23,558 nt of DNA from a virus. Both the position numbers and the translations under genes were made by a program. The stretch covers positions 1-23,558 of IMG/VR virus record IMGVR_UViG_3300038854_000097. One strand, 5' to 3'. The notes under the pieces were generated by a model that was given only the letters and a program-made list of their open reading frames with translations, searched no databases and was not told the origin of the DNA. Below, in pieces: positions 1,140-23,067 of this stretch. Within the stretch, counting starts at the first letter, position 1. Every line of letters starts with the position of its first letter.

Positions 1140-1147
1140 TATAAATA
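1140..1147 (+). promoter_or_regulatory. T4-type late promoter box upstream of gene 18
   Basis: TATAAATA lies just after the end of gene 17 and 62 bases before the gene 18 start, in an AT-rich leader. It matches the T4 late promoter -10 motif exactly. A gp55-type sigma factor that would read it is encoded at 15833-16372. Confidence 0.8.
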
Positions 1148-3744: not shown

Positions 3745-3792
3745 AGCGGTCTATCGATCGGAACACACAGATTCGCTTGCGTGGAGACCGCT
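3745..3792 (+). promoter_or_regulatory. Alternative stem competing with the 3782-3813 terminator
   Basis: AGCGGTCT (3745-3752) is the exact reverse complement of AGACCGCT (3785-3792). The latter is also the 5' arm of the terminator hairpin next to it. The two pairings exclude each other, so the leader holds three segments (A 3745-3752, B 3783-3792, C 3804-3812) with A and C both able to pair with B. This resembles an antiterminator/terminator layout. Function is inferred from complementarity only. Confidence 0.5.
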
Positions 3793-3820
3793 AAATATCT
3801 TTGGCGGTCTCCATTTCTAT
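3782..3820 (+). terminator. Hairpin terminator between genes 19 and 20
   Basis: TGGAGACCGC (3782-3791) pairs perfectly over 10 bp with GCGGTCTCCA (3804-3813), with a 12-base loop, and is followed by TTTCTATT. The stem is GC-rich. The U-tract is interrupted, so termination may be partial. Confidence 0.7.
3791..3798 (+). promoter_or_regulatory. Degenerate late-promoter-like box in terminator loop before gene 20
   Basis: CTAAATAT starts in the last base of the 5' stem arm and runs through the hairpin loop, ending 34 bases before the gene 20 ATG. It repeats the GCTAAATAT seen before gene 19. A late promoter here would let gene 20 be transcribed after upstream messages are stopped by the same hairpin. 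Weak evidence: six of eight bases match TATAAATA. Confidence 0.33.
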
Positions 3821-3832
3821 TAGGAAGAAGAT

Positions 3833-5503
3833 ATGGCAGTTGAATTATTTGGATTTAGAATCGGTCGTGCTGACGAGGAAGCGCAACGTGCCGAGGCGAT
3901 ACCTTCCTTTGCACCACCACCTAACGAGGATGGTGCGATTGAAGTTGCCTCTGGCGGCGTTTATGGTCAGGTTCTTGATGTTGAAGGCACAGCGAAAAAT
4001 GAGGCAGAACTCGTTACAAAATATCGAGAGCTTTCAATGCAACCTGAGTGTGAGCGTGCGATCGAAGATATAGTTAATGAAGCCATTGTAACTAATGAAC
4101 GTTCGGTTCCTGTTGAATTAGATTTAGATCAGGTGAAACAGCCAGAGCGTGTCAAAAATCGTATCCGCGAAGAGTTTTATAAGATTGGCGAAATGCTCGA
4201 TCTTTCTAATATTTCGTACGATATATTTAAACGATGGTATATTGATGGGCGTTTGTACTATCACATAATGATAGATGAAACGAAACCTCGCGAAGGAATA
4301 AAAGAGTTGCGTTATATCGATCCTCGTAGGATACGAAAGGTTCGTGAACCAGCTAAAAAAATCAATAACAAACCACCGCCACCACGTGGCTTAAAGCCTG
4401 CACCTGCATACAATGAGTACTACTTATACAATCACTCAGGCATTGGTGCACAACAGGCGTCACAAGGTATTAAAATTTCACCAGATAGCATATGCCATAT
4501 TCATTGTGGTTTGATGGATGGTCGCAATAAAATGATCCTCGGTCATTTGCAAAAAGCAATCAAGCCAATGAACCAGTTGCGTATGCTTGAGGATGCTGTT
4601 GTAATCTATCGTCTCGCGCGTGCGCCTGAGCGAAGAATATTTTACATTGATGTGGGTAACTTACCGAAGATGAAAGCCGAGCAATATTTGCGCGACATGA
4701 TGACGAAACATAAAAATAAACTCGTCTATGATGCAAATACAGGTGAGGTCAGAGACGATCGTAAGTTTATGACGATGCTCGAAGATTACTGGTTGCCTCG
4801 TCGTGAGGGTGGTCGCGGAACCGAAATTACCACACTTCCTGGCGGTCAGAACCTCGGTGAAATGGAAGATGTAGATTACTTCCGCAAAAAACTTTATATG
4901 TCTCTGAATGTTCCAGTGTCGAGACTTGAGGCTGATAATGCATTCAACCTTGGTCGAGCCAGTGAAATATCGCGTGATGAGCTGAAGTTTACTAAGTTCG
5001 TCAGCCGTTTACGAAATAGATTCAGCATGTTATTTGACGAGTTGCTTGAAATACAACTTGCTCTAACTGGTGTTATGTCTCGTGCAGAGTGGCGTTCGAT
5101 AAAAAATAGTGTGAAATATGACTTTATGAAGGATAATTATTTCACCGAACTTAAAGAGCAGGAACTTATCAACTCACGTCTTTCCATACTTCAGCAAGCA
5201 GAAGCATTTGAAGGAAAGTTTTTCTCAGCTGAGTGGATCCGTAAACATGTTCTTCGTTTCACCGAGGATGAGATAGCAGAAATCGATGCTCAGATGAAGA
5301 GCGAGGCAGGTGATACAGATCAGCCTGAAGAGGAGCCGCCTCAAGAGGAGGAATACAAGCCAGACTCTAATAATCAAATTGTTGAAATACATAGTTCAGT
5401 TGAACCAGAAAAACCTCTTTCTGAAGAAGATAAATTACTCATAGAGAGCATGACTAAAGCTCTAGATAAAGTGACAAAAGACGAGATTAAGGATGATCTA
5501 TGA
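3833..5503 (+). CDS. 20: Portal vertex protein gp20
   Basis: 556 residues against 524 in T4 gp20. Conserved portal stretches include [20 protein letters not shown] with [11 protein letters not shown] (about residues 61-90), [17 protein letters not shown] (about 159-175) and [18 protein letters not shown] (from about residue 344). The C-terminal about 75 residues are very acidic ([10 protein letters not shown]). The dodecameric portal starts prohead assembly at one vertex, docks the gp17 packaging motor and later joins the tail. GGAAGAAG lies just before the ATG. Its stop overlaps the start of the collagen-like gene by four bases (ATGA), suggesting coupled translation. Confidence 0.96.
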
Positions 5504-7476
5504 GTGTCGTCAGCGAATTAAAGGAAGCTAAACTTCTTGCTGCAGCTCTCAAGTTAGCAAAGCAGCACTCGAGTGAAATTATTACTGAGGAGATAGAACT
5601 TCTCCGCGAATCGCTCGAAACGCAAATAAAAAATATCGAAAAAATCCATGAAGGTAGTATTTTTACTGGACCGAAAGGCGATCCTGGTTTAACTGGACCA
5701 CAGGGAGAGGTTGGACCACAGGGTATTAAAGGTGATACTGGCGCACGTGGTCCAAGAGGCGAGCGTGGCTTAATAGGTGAGCAGGGCTATCAGGGTGAAA
5801 CTGGACCGAAAGGCGAAAAGGGAGATCCTGGTCCACAAGGTGAGCGTGGTTTTATAGGCGAACAGGGTGAGCAAGGTGTGCAGGGTCCAGTTGGACCTAT
5901 CGGGGCAAGAGGCGAGCGCGGTTTACAGGGCGAAAAAGGTGAAAAAGGCGAACGTGGTTTGCTTGGGGAACAAGGGGTTCCTGGACCGGAGGGTCCACAA
6001 GGTCCACAAGGTGAACAAGGTTTGCTTGGCGAACAAGGTCCACCAGGACCTGCAGGTGCAGTCGGACCTCAAGGAGTTCAAGGTAAAACTGGACCGAGAG
6101 GTGAAATAGGACCTACTGGACCGAGAGGAGAAAAGGGTGATCCTGGATCCGATGCTGATGTAACTAAATTAGAAGAGCGACTCGAGGTAACTGTCAAACA
6201 AATCAATGACAGAATTTCTAAAGTTGCTGCAGGAAGCGGCGGCGGTGGTGGTAGCGGTGAGGTCAGATTAGAATTTTTAGATGATATTGACAGAGCGACT
6301 GCCTTAGTAAACGGAAAGTTCCTCAAATATGACTCTGCATCTGGCACGTTCGTTGGTGCTGATGCTGGCGGCAGTCTTACTATAAAAGAAGAGGGAACCA
6401 ATGTAGGAACTAATATTACAACTCTTGATTTTATTGGATCGACTGTAACCGCGTCAGGCAACTCAACTTTTGTAACTATCAACTCTAATCCAGATGCTAC
6501 TTTTATATCAAACACAGCAGCTAGACTGTTAATAAATGATCGCGCGCAAGTAGCCAACGTTGCAGCATTAGCTGCTCTCGCTAATACAAACTCAGCTATC
6601 AGCAATCTCAATACAAATTTGACTGGTACAAACACTGCTATTAGAACTTTGGTCAGCGACCGATTACAGGTTGCCAATGCTGTAGTAAACCTACGAGATT
6701 TGAGCGATGTTGCTAACATAACACCCAGTGATGGTCATTTTTTAAAATTTAACAATGCTAATTCAACTTTCACTTTCGCTGCTGCATCTGGTGGTGGGAC
6801 AGATACCTTGGCGAGAAGTGGGATAACGGCGACGAACACTGCTCTTCGTTTATTGATAAGTGATAGAGCTCAAGTTGCGAATGTAGTTCTCAAAACTGGC
6901 GGCACAATGAGTGGGGACTTGGTCCTTTCGGGTGCTGATGTACAATTAAATTTGGGTGCTAATACCGCGATTAAACAAGGCTCTGCGAATACTATAGTGT
7001 TTCAAACAGGGAAAGCAGCTGGTTTAACCACTACGCTGACTCTCGATTCAGAACAAGATTCTACATTTACAGGTGGAATCGTGATGAACGGTAGCAGTAA
7101 ATCATTGACTCTCAATAATAATATGCTCGATGAATTTACTGAATTTGCTCGAGCTTTAGAAAACTCAGGAACTTCGAAAACGCTCGATGTTAGTGACAAC
7201 ACACAACTATATACTCTCACTGGTAATGTTACATTTACACTTCCTGCGTTATCCACTTATCCTGATAACAGCGTCAAAACTATTACGATCGTTGTCAAAC
7301 AGGATGGCACAGGTTCACGAACTGTTGATTTTAGTGCAACCGATGGATTTTCGATCAATAACTCAGCCTCTGTGCCTGATCCAACCGCAGGTGCGAATAA
7401 GGTTTCTATGTATACATGTGTTGGGATTAAAGAACTAAGCGAGTGGTTCATTTCACTCTCTTATATTGATGACTAA
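5500..7476 (+). CDS. Collagen-like fibre protein
   Basis: 658 residues, with no T4 counterpart at this position. The order is a helical N-terminus (residues 1-50), 53 uninterrupted Gly-X-Y triplets (57-215), a short coiled-coil-like segment (about 219-241) and a glycine linker (SGGGGGSG). Beta-rich fibre modules follow, including three copies of a 13-residue motif like [13 protein letters not shown], then a C-terminal domain with [12 protein letters not shown] and [14 protein letters not shown], a type common at fibre tips. A trimeric fibre is likely, with the collagen helix as shaft and the C-terminus as knob or receptor-binding tip. Overlap with gene 20 and a place before gene 67 suggest a head or portal-region fibre, but it could be a tail fibre. 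Assignment as a fibre rests on domain architecture; its location on the virion is inference. Confidence 0.8.
5668..6144 (+). repeat. Collagen Gly-X-Y coding repeat (53 triplets)
   Basis: Every third codon is glycine for 159 codons without a break. X/Y positions are dominated by Pro, Glu, Lys, Gln and Arg (GPQ, GEQ, GEK, GER, GPR). Near-identical DNA units such as ggtgaacaaggtttgcttgg recur, so the tract could change length by slippage or recombination. Confidence 0.95.
6523..6885 (+). repeat. Three copies of a 13-residue fibre motif
   Basis: Copies lie at about 6523-6561 ([13 protein letters not shown]), 6643-6681 ([13 protein letters not shown]) and 6847-6885 ([13 protein letters not shown]). 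They are separated by Asn/Thr-rich sequence within the collagen-like protein. Spacing of about 120 and 204 bases suggests repeated fibre-shaft modules. Confidence 0.7.
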
Positions 7477-7490
7477 GAAAGGATTTCAAA

Positions 7491-7670
7491 ATGGATAAAG
7501 AACATGTTCTTGGTATGATTAATGTGATTGATGTGTGTGCTAAACGAGGTGCGTTCGAAGGTTCCGAACTCGGTAGGATTGCAACTTTACGTGCTGTGCT
7601 TGTAGCAGAAGCTGAGCCGCCTAAAGAAAAAGATCAGCCGCAGGGCGAACTAGAAGTGAAAGAATTATAA
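7491..7670 (+). CDS. Small 59-residue protein, function unknown
   Basis: ATG at 7491 opens a frame of 59 residues ending in TAA at 7668-7670, with AAAGGA (7478-7483) 7 bases before ATG. The N-terminal half (MINVIDVCAKRGAF, then SELGRIATLRAVL) is likely helical. The C-terminal half is rich in Glu, Lys and Pro. I have a general impression of similar short RGAF-containing proteins next to structural genes in environmental phages, but I cannot name a function. It sits between the fibre gene and gene 67, and a late promoter overlaps its stop codon. It may be a chaperone or accessory for the preceding fibre, which is speculation. Confidence 0.72.
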   Translation: MDKEHVLGMINVIDVCAKRGAFEGSELGRIATLRAVLVAEAEPPKEKDQPQGELEVKEL

Positions 7671-7673
7671 ATA
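7666..7673 (+). promoter_or_regulatory. T4-type late promoter box upstream of gene 67
   Basis: TATAAATA overlaps the TAA stop of the 59-residue gene and ends 33 bases before the gene 67 ATG. Exact match to the T4 late -10 motif, with a spacing like the boxes before genes 22 and 23. Confidence 0.78.
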
Positions 7674-7706: not shown

Positions 7707-7925
7707 ATGAGCGACATTGAACAAGCGATCGCGGCTGCTAAAGTTGGTAACGCTGCCGATTTTCAGTCAAGTATACAGTCCGCTCTCATGGATCGTCTAG
7801 GTGACGCAATCGATGCGAGAAAGACGCAGGTTGCTGCTTCATATCTCCAGCCTGAAGAAGAACCTGAAGAACTCGAGGTCGAAGTAGACGAACCAGAAGC
7901 AGAGGAACCTGAGCCTGATGTCTAA
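7707..7925 (+). CDS. 67: Prohead core protein gp67
   Basis: 72 residues against 80 in T4 gp67. The plan is the same: a helical first half (IEQAIAAAKVGNAADFQSSI, MDRLGDAIDARKTQVAASYL) and a strongly acidic tail of Glu, Asp, Val and Pro. In T4, gp67 is an internal scaffold component that helps set head shape and is degraded by the gp21 protease. Position after a late promoter and before genes 21 and 22 supports the call. AAGGAG (7694-7699) lies 7 bases before ATG. Its last 8 bases overlap the next gene. Confidence 0.85.
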   Translation: MSDIEQAIAAAKVGNAADFQSSIQSALMDRLGDAIDARKTQVAASYLQPEEEPEELEVEVDEPEAEEPEPDV

Positions 7926-8836: not shown

Positions 8837-9493
8837 ATGAAACTGATCTGCGAAGTCAACGAAGATATTCAATGCCTAGTTGAAGACGATCTTAATGAAG
8901 AAGGAAAGAAAAATTACTTCATTGAAGGCGTTTTCATGCAAGGTAATATCAAGAACAAAAACGGTCGAGTCTATCCCGTTGATGTTCTGAAGAAAGAAGT
9001 CGACCGTTATAATAAACAATATATTGCGGAGAACCGTGCTTATGGTGAGCTCGGTCATCCTCAAGGTCCAACGATCAACCTCGAACGTGTTTCACACATG
9101 ATTAAAGAGTTGCGCCAAGACGGTGATAACTTCAGAGGAAAAGCTAAGATTATGGATACGCCATATGGCAATATTGTAAAAAATCTCATGAACGAAGGCG
9201 CAAAACTTGGTGTTTCCTCTCGAGGTATGGGAACGCTCGCTAAGAAAGGTGACTCGATGGAGGTTGGTAAAGACTTTCATCTCGCAACCGCTGGCGACAT
9301 CGTTGCTGATCCCTCCGCACCACAGGCGTTCGTTGAAGGTATTATGGAAGGCAAAGAATGGGTTTGGGATAATGGCATCCTTCATGAGGTTGACATTGCT
9401 TCAGCCAAACAACAAATCGAGGAAGCTGCTTCGGCGAGACGCACTGAGGCTGAGGTTCTTAAGGTTTGGGAAAAATTAGTGAAGGGTCTATAG
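8837..9493 (+). CDS. 21: Prohead core protein protease gp21
   Basis: 218 residues, close to 212 in T4. It is a herpesvirus-protease-like serine protease that sits in the prohead core, cleaves scaffold and capsid proteins and then degrades itself. The N-terminal half has the family signature NKNGRVYP (about 41-48) and ELGHPQGPTINLERVSH (71-87), with H74 or H87 as candidate catalytic histidine. GVSSRGMGTL (125-134) carries the candidate catalytic serine. The ATG immediately follows the stop of the preceding gene, with GGGGAG a few bases before. A likely target is the LGE/AA site in gp23. The identification is firm; the exact catalytic residues are assigned by motif only. Confidence 0.94.
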   Translation: MKLICEVNEDIQCLVEDDLNEEGKKNYFIEGVFMQGNIKNKNGRVYPVDVLKKEVDRYNKQYIAENRAYGELGHPQGPTINLERVSHMIKELRQDGDNFRGKAKIMDTPYGNIVKNLMNEGAKLGVSSRGMGTLAKKGDSMEVGKDFHLATAGDIVADPSAPQAFVEGIMEGKEWVWDNGILHEVDIASAKQQIEEAASARRTEAEVLKVWEKLVKGL

Positions 9494-12838: not shown

Positions 12839-13516
12839 ATGTTTCCTGATGATCTTATTATTGAACGTGTGAATGAATCGAAACCTTGGTTTGAAAAGAA
12901 CTGCTTCAACCCCGATGAAATATTCACTATGGATGAGTTCAAAAATCACATCAACTTTCGCCCCAACCTGAGACAAGAACGAATTAACTGGATAGGTGAT
13001 ATCGGTGAATTAAGTTGGGGAGGTGAAGAATGGTGTTGCGATCAGAACAACTGGCCAATAGGTTTGTTTGATCGATTGTTAGATAAGCATGCTGTTTGTC
13101 TCGAGGATAGTTCGCGTATCAACAAAAACATAAATGAAATTTGCAAAAAGCTCGAGCTCTCCTCAGGCTCACCGACTGATGCGCATATTTTCTTTTCGCG
13201 CCAATCAGAAAGTAAAAGTTTCAGTGCTCACTGGGACTGGTCATCTAATATCATATGCCAGTTCTACGGAACTGCTCATATCAAAGTTTATGCAAATATT
13301 CCAGAAAAGATAGACAACGAACATAGAACATGGGAAAAACAAGAGGAAGATTTAGAGCTTGTATATGAACAAGATATGGATCCTGGAGATATAGCATATG
13401 TTCCTGATCAAACGTATCACTTCTACAACCCAAAGTCTAAACGACTGAGCATTAGTTTTCCCATGAATGCCAACTCACAAGATAAACGTCAACAAAGACA
13501 ATGGATTGAGCCATAG
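12839..13516 (+). CDS. JmjC/cupin-like 2-oxoglutarate Fe(II) oxygenase
   Basis: 225 residues. The core matches the cupin-4/JmjC oxygenase pattern: DAHIFFSRQSESKSFSAHWD (114-133) gives the H131-x-D133 metal pair, GTAHIKVY follows (144-151), and DMDPGDIAYVPDQTYH (179-194) gives the third ligand H194. Members of this superfamily, such as bacterial RoxA/YcfD, hydroxylate protein side chains (ribosomal protein L16 arginine in E. coli). The substrate here is unknown; a virion or host translation protein is possible. The gene follows the tail gene after one base and shares its promoters. The start at 12839 is preceded by AAAGGA. No membrane segment or signal is seen. The fold call is good; the activity is inference. 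Confidence 0.75.
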   Translation: MFPDDLIIERVNESKPWFEKNCFNPDEIFTMDEFKNHINFRPNLRQERINWIGDIGELSWGGEEWCCDQNNWPIGLFDRLLDKHAVCLEDSSRINKNINEICKKLELSSGSPTDAHIFFSRQSESKSFSAHWDWSSNIICQFYGTAHIKVYANIPEKIDNEHRTWEKQEEDLELVYEQDMDPGDIAYVPDQTYHFYNPKSKRLSISFPMNANSQDKRQQRQWIEP

Positions 13517-17449: not shown

Positions 17450-19148
17450 GTTCCACTTCGTTCGCTGGAAAAATTTTCTATCAACTGGTAATGTTTTCAC
17501 TGAGGTTGATCTCCACCTCCATGATACCACTCTGATAACAGGAGAAAATGGTGCAGGAAAATCTACCATACTCGATGCACTATGTTTCGGGTTGTATGGT
17601 AAACCTTTCAGAAAAGTCAAAAAGAACCAACTCATAAACTCTGTCAACAATGGTGGTACAGTTGTAGAAGTTGAGTTTATGATAAATGGTAATGATTATA
17701 AAATTGTGCGTGGTATAAAACCTGCAATCTTAGACATATATCAAAATGGTAAACCTAAAGATCAAGCTGCTAATGTTCGTGACTCACAAGAGGATATCGA
17801 AAAAAATATATTGAGAATGAATCAGAAGTCATTCACTCAAATGGTCATATTAGGATCCTCATCATTTATACCTTTCATGCAGCTTTCTACACATGTTCGG
17901 CGCGAGGTTATCGAGGACTTGTTAGATATCGGTGTGTTTTCTACTATGTCTGCATTACTGAAAGATAGAACGAGTGATAACAAACAAACACTCGCACTAA
18001 CAGAAAAAGAAATACATGGTATCGACTCGATGATCGATATGCAAAAAGAGCAAAGCAAGTTCGACGAGGAGCGGCGAAAGTCCGAACTAGAAAGATGCGA
18101 AACGCGCATAGGTGAGATCGACTCAAACATAAAAAAAGTCGATGAGGATATTGAGGATATCAACAGCCAGATCACTGAACTCTATAACCAAATATCTGAT
18201 GAGTCTAAGGTACATAAAAAATCAGATCGAATTTTAAAGCTCGAAACTGATTTAGATAAAAAGAAAAAGAACGCATTAAAGGTAATAGATTTTTATAATA
18301 ATAATGATAACTGCCCAACCTGCACTCAAAAGATTAGTGATGAAATCAAATTAGAAAAAATTAAGGAACGAAACGATACTATCGCTGAGCTTGATGATGG
18401 TATTGAAAAGCTAGCAAAAGAAATCGAAAAGATAAATGTTAGGACAAATGAAATTAAGAAACTGCGTGAGGTTATCGAAAATAAAGAAACCGATCTTGTT
18501 AGAAGCAAACAAGCTAAGACGGCAGATGAGCGTGAGCGTTCTCTACTGTTTGGTAAAATCAAAGATCTTAACAACGAAGAGTTTACGCATACTGCAGATA
18601 AGCTGCTCGAACTCAATGAACAAAAATCAAAAAAGCTATCGGAGAAGGAGGGTCTTCTCAATAAGAAACAGATGTTCGAAATAGCTACATTGATTTTAAA
18701 AGACAGTGGGATCAAAGCGAAAATCATTAAGCAGTATGTACCAATCATAAATCAGCTGGTCAACAAATATCTAGCAGCTATGGACTTCTTCGTCAAGTTT
18801 GAACTTGATGAAAACTTCAGTGAAAAGATTCTATCACGGCATCGCGATGATTTTAGTTATGATTCTTTCAGTGAGGGTGAAAAGATGCGTATCGACTTGT
18901 CATTACTTTTCACTTGGCGCACCATAGCTAAAATGAAAAACAGTGCTAGCACGAACCTCTTGATTCTCGATGAGGTGTTTGATGCATCACTCGATACTAA
19001 TGGTTGTGATGAGTTCCTTAAAATACTAGAAAAGCTCGAAAGCTCAAATGTATTCGTGATATCTCACAAAGCAGATATTATGCAAGATAAGTTTCATAAT
19101 CACATAAGGTTTGAAAAATATAAAAATTTCTCGAGGATAGCAGCATGA
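17442..19148 (+). CDS. 46: Recombination endonuclease subunit gp46 (SbcC/Rad50-like ATPase)
   Basis: 568 residues, close to 560 in T4. Walker A is GENGAGKS (34-41). Long coiled coils flank a zinc hook CPTC (291-294), where Rad50 dimers join. The ABC signature SEGEKMRIDL (near 475) and Walker B LLILDEVFDASLD follow. It pairs with gp47, and ATP hydrolysis controls access of DNA to the nuclease. GGAG (17431-17434) precedes the ATG by 7 bases. Its stop overlaps the start of the first accessory gene (ATGA at 19145), so the cassette downstream appears to be translationally coupled to a core replication gene. Confidence 0.96.
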   Translation: MIEFHFVRWKNFLSTGNVFTEVDLHLHDTTLITGENGAGKSTILDALCFGLYGKPFRKVKKNQLINSVNNGGTVVEVEFMINGNDYKIVRGIKPAILDIYQNGKPKDQAANVRDSQEDIEKNILRMNQKSFTQMVILGSSSFIPFMQLSTHVRREVIEDLLDIGVFSTMSALLKDRTSDNKQTLALTEKEIHGIDSMIDMQKEQSKFDEERRKSELERCETRIGEIDSNIKKVDEDIEDINSQITELYNQISDESKVHKKSDRILKLETDLDKKKKNALKVIDFYNNNDNCPTCTQKISDEIKLEKIKERNDTIAELDDGIEKLAKEIEKINVRTNEIKKLREVIENKETDLVRSKQAKTADERERSLLFGKIKDLNNEEFTHTADKLLELNEQKSKKLSEKEGLLNKKQMFEIATLILKDSGIKAKIIKQYVPIINQLVNKYLAAMDFFVKFELDENFSEKILSRHRDDFSYDSFSEGEKMRIDLSLLFTWRTIAKMKNSASTNLLILDEVFDASLDTNGCDEFLKILEKLESSNVFVISHKADIMQDKFHNHIRFEKYKNFSRIAA

Positions 19149-19804
19149 AATTTGTAGATTTAAAAAGAGAAGGATATTTGTTTGGGCAGATTCCGATAAA
19201 CCTATACAAAGAAATAGATGCTGAAATACAAGAACTTCTCGATACCAACTTTAATGGGGCAGAAACATTTGCCGATAGATTAGCTGGTGCGCTTGAGCAT
19301 GAGTACCTTTTATGGAAATCACACGTAGCAATGGAAGAATTTATAAACTCTGTTGCCGGAGAATATTTCAAAAACAGTATGTGGTTTGACCCTATAGGTA
19401 AAAAATTAAACTTAGATAGATATTGGTGTAACTTTCAAAAGAAAAATGAATACAACCCCATACACACCCACAGTGGACATTTGAGTTTTGTCATTTGGCA
19501 TAAAATTCCTTATGATGCTGCAGAAGAAGCGATGGCACCGAACAGGCGGCAGATAAACGGGAATCCTCTAGATTTATTTCAGTTCGTATTTCCAGATGCA
19601 CATGCGAAGGGTGGTGTGAATAATCACAACCTACAGATAGACAAATCTTTTGAGGGAATGTTTGCACTATTTTCAAATGATCTCTCTCATGTTGTTTACC
19701 CATTTTACACAAGTGATGAATGGAGGATATCTCTCTCGGGGAACTTAACTGTCAGAGATGAGAGCAATGAAATAATTAGATATGTTGGGAGATCTGAGCA
19801 ATGA
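19145..19804 (+). CDS. Putative 2OG-Fe(II) oxygenase
   Basis: 219 residues. The central segment RYWCNFQKKNEYNPIHTHSGHLSFVIWHKIP (92-122) resembles phage 2OG-Fe(II) oxygenases, whose consensus is an Asn/Tyr-rich strand followed by H-x-H and a hydrophobic strand. Candidate metal ligands are H107, H109 and the distal H182 in FSNDLSHVVYPF. R194 in WRISLSGN would bind 2-oxoglutarate. Such enzymes are common in marine T4-like phages; substrates are mostly unknown. The ATG overlaps the gp46 stop, and its own stop overlaps the cupin gene by 4 bases. Being first in the sugar cassette, it may tailor the sugar or a protein. The exact ligand set is uncertain because an H-x-D pair is not obvious. Confidence 0.65.
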   Translation: MKFVDLKREGYLFGQIPINLYKEIDAEIQELLDTNFNGAETFADRLAGALEHEYLLWKSHVAMEEFINSVAGEYFKNSMWFDPIGKKLNLDRYWCNFQKKNEYNPIHTHSGHLSFVIWHKIPYDAAEEAMAPNRRQINGNPLDLFQFVFPDAHAKGGVNNHNLQIDKSFEGMFALFSNDLSHVVYPFYTSDEWRISLSGNLTVRDESNEIIRYVGRSEQ

Positions 19805-20229
19805 TTGAAATAAAAGGTCATGACCGTAAACTATTACACATCGTGTATAGGCTATTTGATTTGAAAGTAGCGAAACGGCACGAGGTCATAGATGCAAATA
19901 ATTTTCTACAGCTTGCTGCTTTAAATATGCCAAAGGGTAAAACATTTGAGCCTCATAAACATATTTGGAAAGACGGTGAGAGAGAAGTTATAGCGCAAGA
20001 AGCGTGGGTGGTTATAAAGGGAAAGGTCGAGGTTTCTTATTTCAATGAGCTAGGATACCCCATACAGAAAGAAATACTCGAGGAGGGTGATGTATCGATA
20101 ACACTTCATGGTGGTCACACATATACTATTCTCGAAGATGCATTAGTTTATGAGTTCAAAACAGGTCCATATACTGGCCAAGAAAATGATAAGATATTTT
20201 TGAAAGAGCTAGATTATCCAATATTATGA
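19801..20229 (+). CDS. Cupin-domain protein of sugar cluster type
   Basis: 142 residues forming a single cupin barrel. PHKH (51-54), E67 in AQEAWVVIKGKVEV and H106 in LHGGHTYTI are the expected metal ligands. The end carries YEFKTGPYTGQENDK (117-131), a pattern I associate with cupins in bacterial surface-sugar clusters. Possible roles are a sugar-nucleotide isomerase, as in FdtA-type cupins, or a metal-dependent binding protein. No substrate can be named. It is joined by ATGA overlaps to the oxygenase gene before it and the glycosyltransferase gene after it. Confidence 0.72.
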   Translation: MIEIKGHDRKLLHIVYRLFDLKVAKRHEVIDANNFLQLAALNMPKGKTFEPHKHIWKDGEREVIAQEAWVVIKGKVEVSYFNELGYPIQKEILEEGDVSITLHGGHTYTILEDALVYEFKTGPYTGQENDKIFLKELDYPIL

Positions 20230-20921
20230 CAAACGTGACTATTCGAGGTGGTATAGGAACTCAGGTTCTTGGCTTTGTTATAAACTTAGCAAGGTATGGT
20301 GATAAGATAACTTCCGTGTCGTACAACACTGGTAACTATCCTGCTGAGCAAAAAAAGATAATGAAAGCTGGTTCAGTTCAGGAATATATAGACAAGTGTT
20401 TGGATATTATATTTCCGATAGAATACAATAATGTTCCGAATGGTAAAACTATTTTGAATGATGAATCTATAGAGCATGCGCTGAAGAACATTACAAGAGC
20501 CATATTTTTTGCAGGTCCGAAAAGAGCTGAGGGTTTTGATAGACCCATTCTACATGTGCGTAAACACGATTATGATACATTATCAGACCAAAGTTATTTT
20601 GATTTGATAACAAAGTATGATTGCGAAAATATAGTCACAGACAGTGTCGACCACTGCAAAAAGTTCGGTCTGAACTACACAGATGAACCTGAAAATACTA
20701 TCGGTGACTGGCTTAAACTCGCCAACTCTCGCACTACTTGTGTTGGACCGTTTTCTACATTTACTCTCATGGCAGCATATTTTAATCCAGCACTCGAACT
20801 AAAGGTTGTCGAACCTCAAGAGGCGAACGGTCATGTTTGGGGTGGGAACGAGCGTATTGAGTCAGGTAAGAGGCATCTTGCTTTATTTGTTAAACATCTA
20901 TCGAATGTGAGCTACGCATGA
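20226..20921 (+). CDS. GT11-like (fucosyltransferase-related) glycosyltransferase
   Basis: 231 residues; GT11 enzymes are usually about 290. The N-terminus TIRGGIGTQVLGF (5-17) parallels the GGLGNQ-type start of alpha-1,2-fucosyltransferases. LHVRKHDY (109-116) parallels their HxRRGDY nucleotide-binding motif, with K-H replacing R-G. The C-terminal GDWLKLANSRTTCVGPFSTF (160-179) parallels the conserved region ending in the SSFSWW motif. These enzymes take GDP-6-deoxyhexoses, which fits the GDP-mannose dehydratase two genes on from its partner formyltransferase. It is linked by 4-base overlaps to the cupin and formyltransferase genes. The family call rests on three short motifs, so it is moderate; acceptor and donor are inferred. 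Confidence 0.6.
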   Translation: MTNVTIRGGIGTQVLGFVINLARYGDKITSVSYNTGNYPAEQKKIMKAGSVQEYIDKCLDIIFPIEYNNVPNGKTILNDESIEHALKNITRAIFFAGPKRAEGFDRPILHVRKHDYDTLSDQSYFDLITKYDCENIVTDSVDHCKKFGLNYTDEPENTIGDWLKLANSRTTCVGPFSTFTLMAAYFNPALELKVVEPQEANGHVWGGNERIESGKRHLALFVKHLSNVSYA

Positions 20922-21538
20922 AAATATTATTTTTTGGTGGTCGTTGTGATTTTTCGAAAGAAGCATATAACCACCTGACAGCTAAAGGTCACGATGTGAA
21001 GAGTGAGTGGGCTGCGAAACGTGGACAAAAAGTATCACAGGCTGCTCTCGAGTGGGAAGGTGATCTAATCATCTCTTTTCTGAACTATACTATTTTGCCG
21101 AAAGAAATACTGGAAAAAGCACCTGCTATAAATTTTCATCCCGGACCGCCTGAACATCCGGGAAGTGGCTGTATGAGCTGGGGATTATATGAAGGTCAAA
21201 AAATATATGGTGTCACTGTTCATGAAGTAAATGAAAAAGTCGACGCTGGCAAAATATTGAAGGTTCGGCGGTTTGATATTTCCGACTGTGAATCAAGAGA
21301 ACAACTCGAACACAGAGCTAAAACTGAGTTGCTCACACTTTTCTATGAGCATACTGAGTACACAAAGTGGCCACGTGAGGCGAGGAAGATTAGTGAAATA
21401 GACGAAATGGCTGAAATAGATAGTGATGAAAGGTATACAGAAGTTCTCAGTAGGATTCGAGCTTTTCATACAGAAAAACATCCAGTTCACATAATGATTG
21501 GTGATAAGAGGTTTGAATATGTTCCAGAAAGTGACTGA
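20918..21538 (+). CDS. N10-formyl-THF-dependent formyltransferase, probably sugar N-formyltransferase
   Basis: 206 residues. The formyl_trans_N fold is recognised by AINFHPGPPEHPGSG (70-84), MSWGLYEG (86-93) and YGVTVHEVNEKVDAGKIL (97-114). The usual catalytic Asn-His-Asp set maps to N72, H74 and D109. It is too short to be a methionyl-tRNA formyltransferase (about 310 residues), which also has a C-terminal tRNA-binding domain. Similar single-domain enzymes formylate amino sugars, for example Brucella WbkC in N-formylperosamine synthesis. The DegT-like and GMD genes follow directly, giving a coherent pathway. ATGA overlap with the glycosyltransferase gene. Formyltransferase is well supported; the sugar substrate is inferred. 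Confidence 0.8.
   Translation: MKILFFGGRCDFSKEAYNHLTAKGHDVKSEWAAKRGQKVSQAALEWEGDLIISFLNYTILPKEILEKAPAINFHPGPPEHPGSGCMSWGLYEGQKIYGVTVHEVNEKVDAGKILKVRRFDISDCESREQLEHRAKTELLTLFYEHTEYTKWPREARKISEIDEMAEIDSDERYTEVLSRIRAFHTEKHPVHIMIGDKRFEYVPESD
21506..21511 (+). promoter_or_regulatory. Ribosome binding site fixing the aminotransferase start
   Basis: AAGAGG lies 7 bases before ATG 21519. An upstream in-frame TTG (21498) has no such site and would need a rare start codon, so 21519 is chosen. Confidence 0.65.
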
Positions 21539-22109
21539 GTTTGAAAAAAGGGTCGCCGAGTTCTTCGGTGCGCCATATGCTGTCGCAGTGGATTCATGCA
21601 CCCATGGGGTAGAACTTTGCCTGAGGTATAAAAACTCATCATACATGTTCGTTCCTGTTCACACATACCTATCAATCCCTATGTTAGCTAAAAAACTCAA
21701 CATACAGTTTTATTGGTCTAATGAGCCATGGGAAAACTATTATGAAATTATAGATAAAATATACGACGCTGCAGTTTTATGGGAGCGCGATAGCTATATT
21801 CCAGGAACGATGATGTCACTCAGTTTTCAATTTCAAAAACATCTCAGCCTTGGCAGAGGTGGTATGATACTGCTTGATGATAAAGAAGCTCATGAAGAGC
21901 TGATTCGTATGAGTTATGATGGTCGTGACCGCGATATGCCTTGGCGTGATCAGAATGTCAAAACACATGGATATCATTATTATATGACACCTGAAACTGC
22001 GATCACCGGAATAGAACGATTGGAAGATGCTATAAATAGAAAGCCGAAACAGTGGGTCATGAGTGATTGGCCAAATTTATCTTTGATGGAGGTATTTCGT
22101 AATGGCTAA
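21519..22109 (+). CDS. Shortened DegT/DnrJ/EryC1 (PLP) aminotransferase
   Basis: 196 residues from ATG 21519; family members have about 370. The N-terminal pattern FEKRVAEFFGAPYAVAVDSC (8-27) is the phosphate-binding start of the family. DAA at 83-85 gives the PLP-pyridine aspartate, and SFQFQKHLSLGRGG (102-115) carries K107 as the Schiff-base lysine. TPETAITGIERLEDA (157-171) matches the region before the small domain. The stretch between the Asp-binding strand and DAA is compressed, and the C-terminal about 100-120 residues of the small domain are missing, with no frameshift visible. A sugar C4-aminotransferase role like perosamine synthase fits the neighbours, but activity of so short a form is unproven. 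It overlaps both neighbours (20 and 8 bases). Confidence 0.75.
   Translation: MFQKVTEFEKRVAEFFGAPYAVAVDSCTHGVELCLRYKNSSYMFVPVHTYLSIPMLAKKLNIQFYWSNEPWENYYEIIDKIYDAAVLWERDSYIPGTMMSLSFQFQKHLSLGRGGMILLDDKEAHEELIRMSYDGRDRDMPWRDQNVKTHGYHYYMTPETAITGIERLEDAINRKPKQWVMSDWPNLSLMEVFRNG
22031..22038 (+). promoter_or_regulatory. Possible internal late promoter before gmd
   Basis: TATAAATA lies within the aminotransferase gene and ends 63 bases before the gmd ATG, the same spacing as the box before gene 18. It also encodes residues AIN of the protein, so chance in AT-rich coding DNA cannot be excluded. Confidence 0.35.
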
Positions 22110-23067
22110 AGCATTAATCACAGGTATCAGTGGACAAGATGGGAGTTATCTAACCGAGTATCTTCTAGAACTAGGATACGATGTCTACGGTATAGTTCGC
22201 CGCCATAGTGTCGCAGAAAATCAAAGCGCAAGGTTGGTTGATACCAATCACAAAATTAAAACATTCTATGGTGACCTGACCGATGAGTTATCTCTTTATC
22301 GGATTGTTGAAGAGGTAAAGCCAGACGAGGTTTACAATCTCGCTGCTATGAGTCATGTGCGAATCAGCACCGATATGCCAGCTTTCACGATAAAAACTAA
22401 CTCGCTGGGTGTTCTAAATATGCTAGAGGTGGTGCGAACAGTTGTACCGAAAGCAAGGTTCTATCAAGCATCATCAAGTGAGATGTTTGGTAACTCTATC
22501 GAGCCAGGAGGTATGCAAACTCTAACGACTCCGATGCATCCTGTCAGCCCATACGGTTGTTCAAAGGTATTAGGATACAATTTGGTTCGGCATTATCGTA
22601 ATGGTTTCAAAATGCATGCTTGTAATGGTATCTTGTTCAATCACGAGTCACCTCGTCGGGGAACGAACTTCGTAACTAACAAGGTTGTAAAAACTGCGGT
22701 TCAGATCAAGAAGGGTATGGTCGACAAACTCGAGCTAGGAAATATGGATAGTTGCCGCGATTGGGGTCACAGTTATGATTACGTTCGGGGAATGCATAAG
22801 ATAATTAATCACGAGGTTCCAGATGACTTCATTATCGCCACTGGTGACACTTACTCTGTTAGAGATATGTGTGATCATGTTTTTTCTCGTCTCGATATGG
22901 ATTATAAAGATTACGTGGTCCAAAATCCGAAGTATATGCGACCGGAAGAGCTGAAGTATCTTCGGGGCGATTCGTCTAAGATTCGTGAAACTTTGGGTTG
23001 GGAGCCGACTTATACGTTTGCCTCTATGCTAGATGAGATGATTGAACATTGGATGGAAAAGATATGA
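22102..23067 (+). CDS. gmd: GDP-mannose 4,6-dehydratase
   Basis: 321 residues; the family is usually about 345-370. It is an extended short-chain dehydrogenase. ITGISGQDGSYL (6-17) binds NADP, SSEMFG (125-130) is the GMD-specific active-site strand, and Y151 and K155 in PYGCSK form the catalytic pair. FNHESPRRGTNFVTNKV (179-195) is the signature of GMD substrate binding. It converts GDP-D-mannose to GDP-4-keto-6-deoxy-D-mannose, the precursor of GDP-fucose, GDP-rhamnose and GDP-perosamine. No fucose synthase (fcl) is seen here, so amination by the preceding DegT protein is the likelier next step. GGAGG (22088-22092) precedes the ATG, which overlaps the aminotransferase stop by 8 bases. Confidence 0.95.
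   Translation: MAKALITGISGQDGSYLTEYLLELGYDVYGIVRRHSVAENQSARLVDTNHKIKTFYGDLTDELSLYRIVEEVKPDEVYNLAAMSHVRISTDMPAFTIKTNSLGVLNMLEVVRTVVPKARFYQASSSEMFGNSIEPGGMQTLTTPMHPVSPYGCSKVLGYNLVRHYRNGFKMHACNGILFNHESPRRGTNFVTNKVVKTAVQIKKGMVDKLELGNMDSCRDWGHSYDYVRGMHKIINHEVPDDFIIATGDTYSVRDMCDHVFSRLDMDYKDYVVQNPKYMRPEELKYLRGDSSKIRETLGWEPTYTFASMLDEMIEHWMEKI

Follow-up and report, generated by a model that had tools for sequence, protein, structure and literature searches.

Pelagimyophages and cyanomyophages carry a variable fibre cluster for host recognition within their structural region, between VrlC and gp14, and collagen repeats and major tropism determinant domains have been found among their unidentified structural proteins (PMC7029224). 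In the Synechococcus phages S-SM2 and Bellamy and the Prochlorococcus phage P-TIM68, which are related Kyanoviridae, a gene for a tail-fibre-like protein lies between gp16 and gp17 and overlaps a packaging gene. Gly-X-Y stalks are built into mycobacteriophage minor tail proteins and E. coli prophage fibres (PMC3368898). Fibres are also positioned at the head–tail junction, as in the T4 whisker fibritin and in Shigella virus Sf14, whose whisker genes gp30 and gp31 directly follow the portal gene and whose whiskers attach to the adaptor (PMC11821841). Neck whiskers can thus be the products of fibre genes that immediately adjoin a portal gene, as Sf14 illustrates.

Here, we describe a collagen fibre gene in a 23.6-kb virus record from a T4-like phage (the window), in which the gene order is terL, gp18, gp19, gp20, fibre, a 59-aa ORF, gp67-like, gp68-like, a 94-aa ORF, gp21 (Peptidase_S77, 8837–9493), gp22 and gp23. 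The initial annotation had placed the fibre gene between portal gene 20 and gp67, overlapping the portal stop codon, and this position is borne out; the fibre ATG overlaps the portal stop by 4 bp in the sequence ATGA, and the gp67-like product is a weak match to phrog_1064 (Table 1). The locus resembles the gp16–gp17 arrangement in its overlap with a packaging gene and in the LDD linker module of the fibre, which is about 50% identical, and differs in lying next to gp20 rather than gp16, in possessing a collagen tract, and in the N-terminus of the fibre. The existence of the gp16–gp17 fibres in S-SM2, P-TIM68, and Bellamy implies that fibres beside packaging genes arose more than once. Like the pelagimyophage cluster, the locus is a variable fibre cluster in the structural region, but it is located between gp20 and gp67, and the two can co-occur. 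With other phage collagen-like tail fibres the homology is limited to the collagen repeat, the N- and C-termini and the gene context being different, while the likeness to the Sf14 whiskers is one of gene position. We propose, with a probability of roughly 60%, that the gene encodes a late-expressed trimeric collagen-stalk virion fibre leading a second host-recognition cassette that is exchangeable and immediately follows the portal gene; we infer the virion location, trimerization, and binding of the fibre.

Table 1 Features of the portal–fibre locus and its flanks in the window
Feature	Position	Strand	Evidence
Late promoter-like box of T4 type before gp18, where the unit ending with the fibre gene likely starts	1140..1147	+	TATAAATA match
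Portal protein gp20, 556 aa	3833..5503	+	Portal_T4, 3e-176
Portal residues 493–525, acidic/Pro/Gln-rich linker, predicted disordered, extending past the T4 gp20-aligned region	5309..5407	+	
Portal C-terminal helix motif, residues 530–547, in every relative with the fibre gene	5420..5473	+	
Collagen-stalk fibre protein, 658 aa	5500..7476	+	
Fibre N-terminal region, residues 1–56, with family-specific helix	5500..5667	+	
54 perfect Gly-X-Y triplets, residues 57–218	5668..6153	+	
Post-collagen helix, residues 222–244, probable trimeric coiled coil/registration motif	6163..6231	+	Predicted helix, pLDDT about 70–80; family motif
Gly-rich linker module, common to tail-fibre proteins of S-SM2, P-TIM68, and Bellamy	6244..6360	+	
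Long predicted helix, NTNxAI/DRxQVAN repeats, residues 339–393	6514..6678	+	Model
C-terminal beta-rich head domain, residues 541–658; on a separate Mtd_N protein in L012	7120..7473	+	
59-aa ORF, between fibre and gp67	7491..7670	+	
Late promoter-like box before gp67	7666..7673	+	TATAAATA match
gp67-like prohead core protein	7707..7925	+	4e-5

The collagen assignment is immediately apparent from the Pfam Collagen family (PF01391; E=5.1e-27, 93.9 bits against a cut-off of 27.2). The Gly-X-Y tract, initially counted at 53 triplets, is perfect as claimed and one triplet longer; in 2,000 residue-shuffled copies of the fibre, runs reach at most 6. In the AlphaFold model, the tract is followed by a helix, a Gly-rich module, NTN/QVAN repeats that are predicted to be helical, and finally a C-terminal domain rich in beta structure. 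As the portal and fibre models are monomeric and poor (mean pLDDT 58–60; 58 overall for the fibre), we draw no geometric claim from them and for the fibre use local features alone, such as the predicted post-collagen helix and C-terminal beta domain. A fold search with the fibre returned mostly phage fibre, Mtd_N, YadA, and collagen proteins, all at weak TM-scores. The C-terminal parts match phage tail-fibre proteins, and the full-length protein matches phage sequences in the collagen repeat and short terminal modules only. Together with adhesin neighbours in relatives, this collagen, coiled-coil, and beta-head architecture upholds the earlier description of the protein as fibre-like. Pfam matches in the window fibre did not include the T4 long tail fibre families (gp34–gp37), and the gene lies between gp20 and gp67, outside the conventional cluster; fibritin (wac) was likewise not matched by Pfam. 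No anti-phage defence match was obtained, and bacterial genomes, scanned once with a single family member as query, yielded no relative.

The fibre and four portals served as queries in scans of IMG/VR. In the portal-diversity neighbourhood of the window, gp20 is almost invariably followed by a gene for a collagen protein, whose start lies at −37 to +7 nt relative to the portal stop. Most other portals have a gp67-like ORF closely downstream, and the longer gp20–gp21 distance in several relatives of locus L120 reflects long gp68-type core proteins, not fibres. Across a large uncultured group of T4-like viruses, the fibre gene heads a cassette that occupies the interval from portal to gp67. The gene place, flagged at the outset as unusual, is kept in about 30 non-redundant relatives, some of the loci being overlapping fragments of the same contigs, and is without a fibre in the four cultured Kyanoviridae checked (S-H38, S-RIM14, P-RSM4, and HTVC008M); when 50,697 phage records were searched by tblastn, two family members used as queries returned no match.

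Family members possess an N-terminal helix, a collagen stalk, a post-collagen coil (FKxxISAQVTRLA), a GGG/LDD module, and variable C-termini. They have one or two collagen segments, with a main run of 21–22, 36–40, or 52–59 triplets, and some carry a small beta insert. The window fibre has the AKLL-type N-terminal helix, a start no more than about 40 nt from the portal stop, and the portal C-terminal helix motif that characterize the portal-adjacent family. A profile of the fibre N-terminus found convincing matches in portal-adjacent fibres only among the loci searched, the unlabelled strong matches lying in re-fetched pieces of the same contigs. Collagen per se is not a family marker, as in some relatives that lack the fibre, collagen proteins are encoded at other places and do not have the N-terminal helix. 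The apparent quantization of tract lengths (about 22, 37–40, and 52–59 triplets) seems to track architectural groups. At L310:2022–2552 and beyond, the fibre reading frame is broken inside the collagen tract by a frameshift in the contig.

Downstream of the fibre gene, the cassettes of relatives encode proteins with Mtd_N, LamG, and DUF7483 domains. Judged by gene content the cassette is modular, since in L012, whose portal is 88% identical to that of the window, the collagen protein has only 315 aa and the C-terminal domain of the window fibre is instead part of a distinct Mtd_N protein, encoded 4 kb downstream and immediately preceding the 59-aa ORF and gp67. Among collagen proteins with a terminal D[YF]G joint, an Mtd_N gene comes next in 9 of 10 cases, against 1 of 17 without the joint (Fisher 2e-5); the sole miss, L077, nevertheless has an Mtd_N gene further downstream. 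This association can be read as a shaft with a separately encoded tip, as opposed to self-tipped forms such as that of the window. Positions 6803–8554 of L011 encode a protein of 583 aa that consists for the most part of glycine-rich GxxGNxG repeats, which recall T-even gp38 adhesins; a protein carrying the C-terminal domain of the window fibre is encoded close by. Two long contigs (G003 and G004) possess, besides the portal-adjacent cassette, large adhesin-type genes between VrlC and gp13, a region that belongs to the host recognition cluster described in PMC7029224; the portal-adjacent set is therefore an additional, second one in these viruses.

Taken together, a model for the fibre can be outlined. 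Three chains would join via the collagen tract and the post-collagen coil, and the N-terminal helix would serve as the virion anchor. The stalk may act as a spacer which, at the collagen rise of about 0.86 nm per triplet, would measure about 46 nm for 54 triplets if fully helical. The tip would be the protein's own beta-head in the window or, in relatives ending in D-Y/F-G, the Mtd_N proteins encoded next.

The timing of expression was read from late-promoter-like TATAAATA boxes, of which the window has eight, compared to a mean of 1.3 in shuffles. All are on the plus strand (1140, 7666, 9503, 10692, 12250, 12702, 15174, and 22031) and precede gp18, gp67, gp22, gp23, and others; the window scan found none before gp20 or the fibre gene. 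From this distribution, a new late unit probably begins at gp67 and the fibre gene probably closes the preceding one, which makes late production of the fibre, along with sheath, tube, and portal, probable. The head-assembly operon setting of the initial annotation is qualified in one respect, the fibre gene being the last of the gp18–gp19–gp20 stretch. Positions 3781–3814, between gp19 and gp20, contain a hairpin of 15 pairs with a T-rich stretch after it, a possible attenuator or RNA processing site.

This transcriptional arrangement bears on the idea that the fibre is a Hoc-like decoration of the head surface, bound to the shell and not to portal or tail. The adjoining head genes and a phage capsid spike to which the structural match is weak (Pa223, E=6e-4, TM 0.16–0.23) are consistent with this idea. 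Yet Pfam detected no Hoc-like capsid-binding domain in the window fibre, the gene probably belongs to a unit transcribed upstream of the gp67 late promoter, and the fibre co-varies with the portal, the head protein compared; we consider shell decoration improbable.

Unexpectedly, the portal itself differs in fibre-bearing viruses. Fibre-adjacent portals extend about 45 residues past the T4 gp20-aligned region, with an acidic/Pro-rich linker and a terminal helix of amphipathic pattern; in the window model the helix is predicted at residues 531–550 and the linker has pLDDT <50. The helix motif is present in 87/87 records with a fibre and absent in 225 records without one, one further fibre-less record (L158) having it; these records are redundant (30 fibre-bearing and 96 fibre-less portals entered the tree), and the motif pattern was widened once to take in two diverged copies in L310. 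A motif profile matched convincingly only portals of fibre-bearing loci, and the Kyanoviridae portals checked, from phages other than S-SM2, P-TIM68, and Bellamy, do not have the motif. The Leu at −4 is invariant across 34 distinct sequences and uses five different codons. By this codon evidence the motif is conserved as protein, and a nucleotide-only constraint such as a ribosome site is rejected because many different codons encode the invariant residues. Comparison of profiles gave no sign of a common origin for the portal tail and the N-terminal helix of the fibre (hhalign probability 0.1). In L158, a gp67-like ORF is next to the portal and the 16.6-kb contig contains no collagen match, and the L310 portal tail seems to hold the two diverged helix-motif copies.

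On a portal-core tree built with the tail left out, the fibre state changes four times and the motif follows in each; these amount to 3–4 independent pairs, for which a sign test is not significant. Portal cores that are 97–99% identical carry swapped tail and fibre types (L120/L121, L063/L064, L074/L080, and L049/L052), demonstrating joint exchange of tail and fibre. Taken by itself, such co-transfer is weak support, as the portal tail and the fibre start are contiguous in the DNA and may move passively. As far as the sequences tell, motif retention in long-separated fibre-bearing lineages is the stronger point.

The contiguity also underlies the most serious competing explanation, in which the fibre is an ordinary baseplate- or tail-attached fibre whose gene was merely relocated beside the portal, and the portal motif serves head assembly, by scaffold binding, and is passively carried with the cassette; recombination in the conserved portal core would then shift both. 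Its C-terminal modules are common to conventional tail-fibre proteins, one cassette Mtd_N protein is related to HTVC008M gp064 of the conventional cluster, and the C-terminus of the T4 portal is internal. Relocation leaves unexplained why 225 fibre-less records do not have the motif and why the motif is under protein-level selection in each fibre-bearing lineage, including the long-separated L123/L236 and L310; moreover, the fibre N-terminal helix occurs on no other fibre in the loci searched. We judge relocation to be unlikely overall.

For the proposed second-cassette fibre, the pairing of fibre N-terminus and portal tail suggests a paired anchor, and the portal C-terminal helix would be the best candidate partner of the fibre anchor, during assembly or in the virion, a partnership that we put forward tentatively. 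Its most explicit form is that twelve flexible portal C-terminal docking helices bind the N-terminal helices of the collagen fibres, so that the portal vertex, and not the baseplate or neck adaptor, holds the second host-recognition fibre set, with tail and fibre exchanged as one cassette; this form we find doubtful. In T4, no part of the portal is more internal than the crown (residues 451–524, C-terminus), which lies, as do C-terminal GFP fusions, within the capsid (PMC4493910, PMC3012670), which argues against external docking of a fibre on the portal tail. The head or portal anchoring first suggested from gene location gains suggestive evidence in the strict pairing with the portal helix and is at odds with T4 topology. 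The tail could reach out between portal and shell, contact could precede shell closure, or the tail could have some other role.

The same topology could place the fibre inside the prohead, bound to the portal crown via the two helices as an internal head component that is packaged or ejected. The portal tails should face the interior, and P22 has an internal C-terminal portal extension (PMC4493910). Against an internal location, the fibre N-terminus seems, in a by-eye comparison, not to have a T4-like capsid targeting sequence resembling the MKxFxxF-like start of the core proteins of relatives, 13 L/I-x-E sites would be open to gp21 (cleavage motif from PMC9026906), and the adhesin and lectin domains of the cassette would be senseless inside a head. 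We regard an internal fibre as very improbable.

For the large group of uncultured T4-like viruses, the second-cassette reading would define a second host-recognition locus, and host prediction from the conventional fibre cluster alone would miss part of the machinery. The portal findings hint at a previously undescribed way of anchoring fibres; if the portal tail does hold the fibre, the mode of anchoring would be new, the portal would bear a natural docking tag, and where a T4-type portal C-terminus can reach would need rethinking. If it does not, a tail kept almost only in fibre-bearing viruses still needs explaining.

Finally, we considered the residue chemistry of the stalk. In the window tract, X is chiefly Pro or Glu and Y chiefly Gln, Arg, or Lys, with 11 K/R-G-E/D charge pairs, in agreement with the abundance of Glu, Lys, and Arg pointed out initially; such a make-up with charge pairs is that of unmodified bacterial collagens. 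Hydroxylation of proline or lysine had been suggested on account of putative 2OG oxygenases, and the window does encode JmjC_2 and 2OG-FeII_Oxy_5 proteins, 5–12 kb from the fibre gene. Proline occupies the Y position in only 5/54 triplets of the window fibre and in 6% across the family, and HTVC008M has several 2OG oxygenases of the same broad kind and no fibre at the gp20–gp67 locus. On these sequence grounds proline hydroxylation is not supported, and we set aside a hydroxylated collagen. At 19145–23067, the window carries genes of surface-sugar type, all assigned below NCBI equivalog cut-offs: a 2OG oxygenase, a WbuC-like cupin, a formyltransferase-like protein, a short PseC/LegC-like aminotransferase, and a GDP-mannose 4,6-dehydratase-like protein. 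The JmjC_2-type oxygenase gene (12839–13516) is located between gp3 and uvsY, and it occupies the same place in the close relatives L004, L006, and L019.
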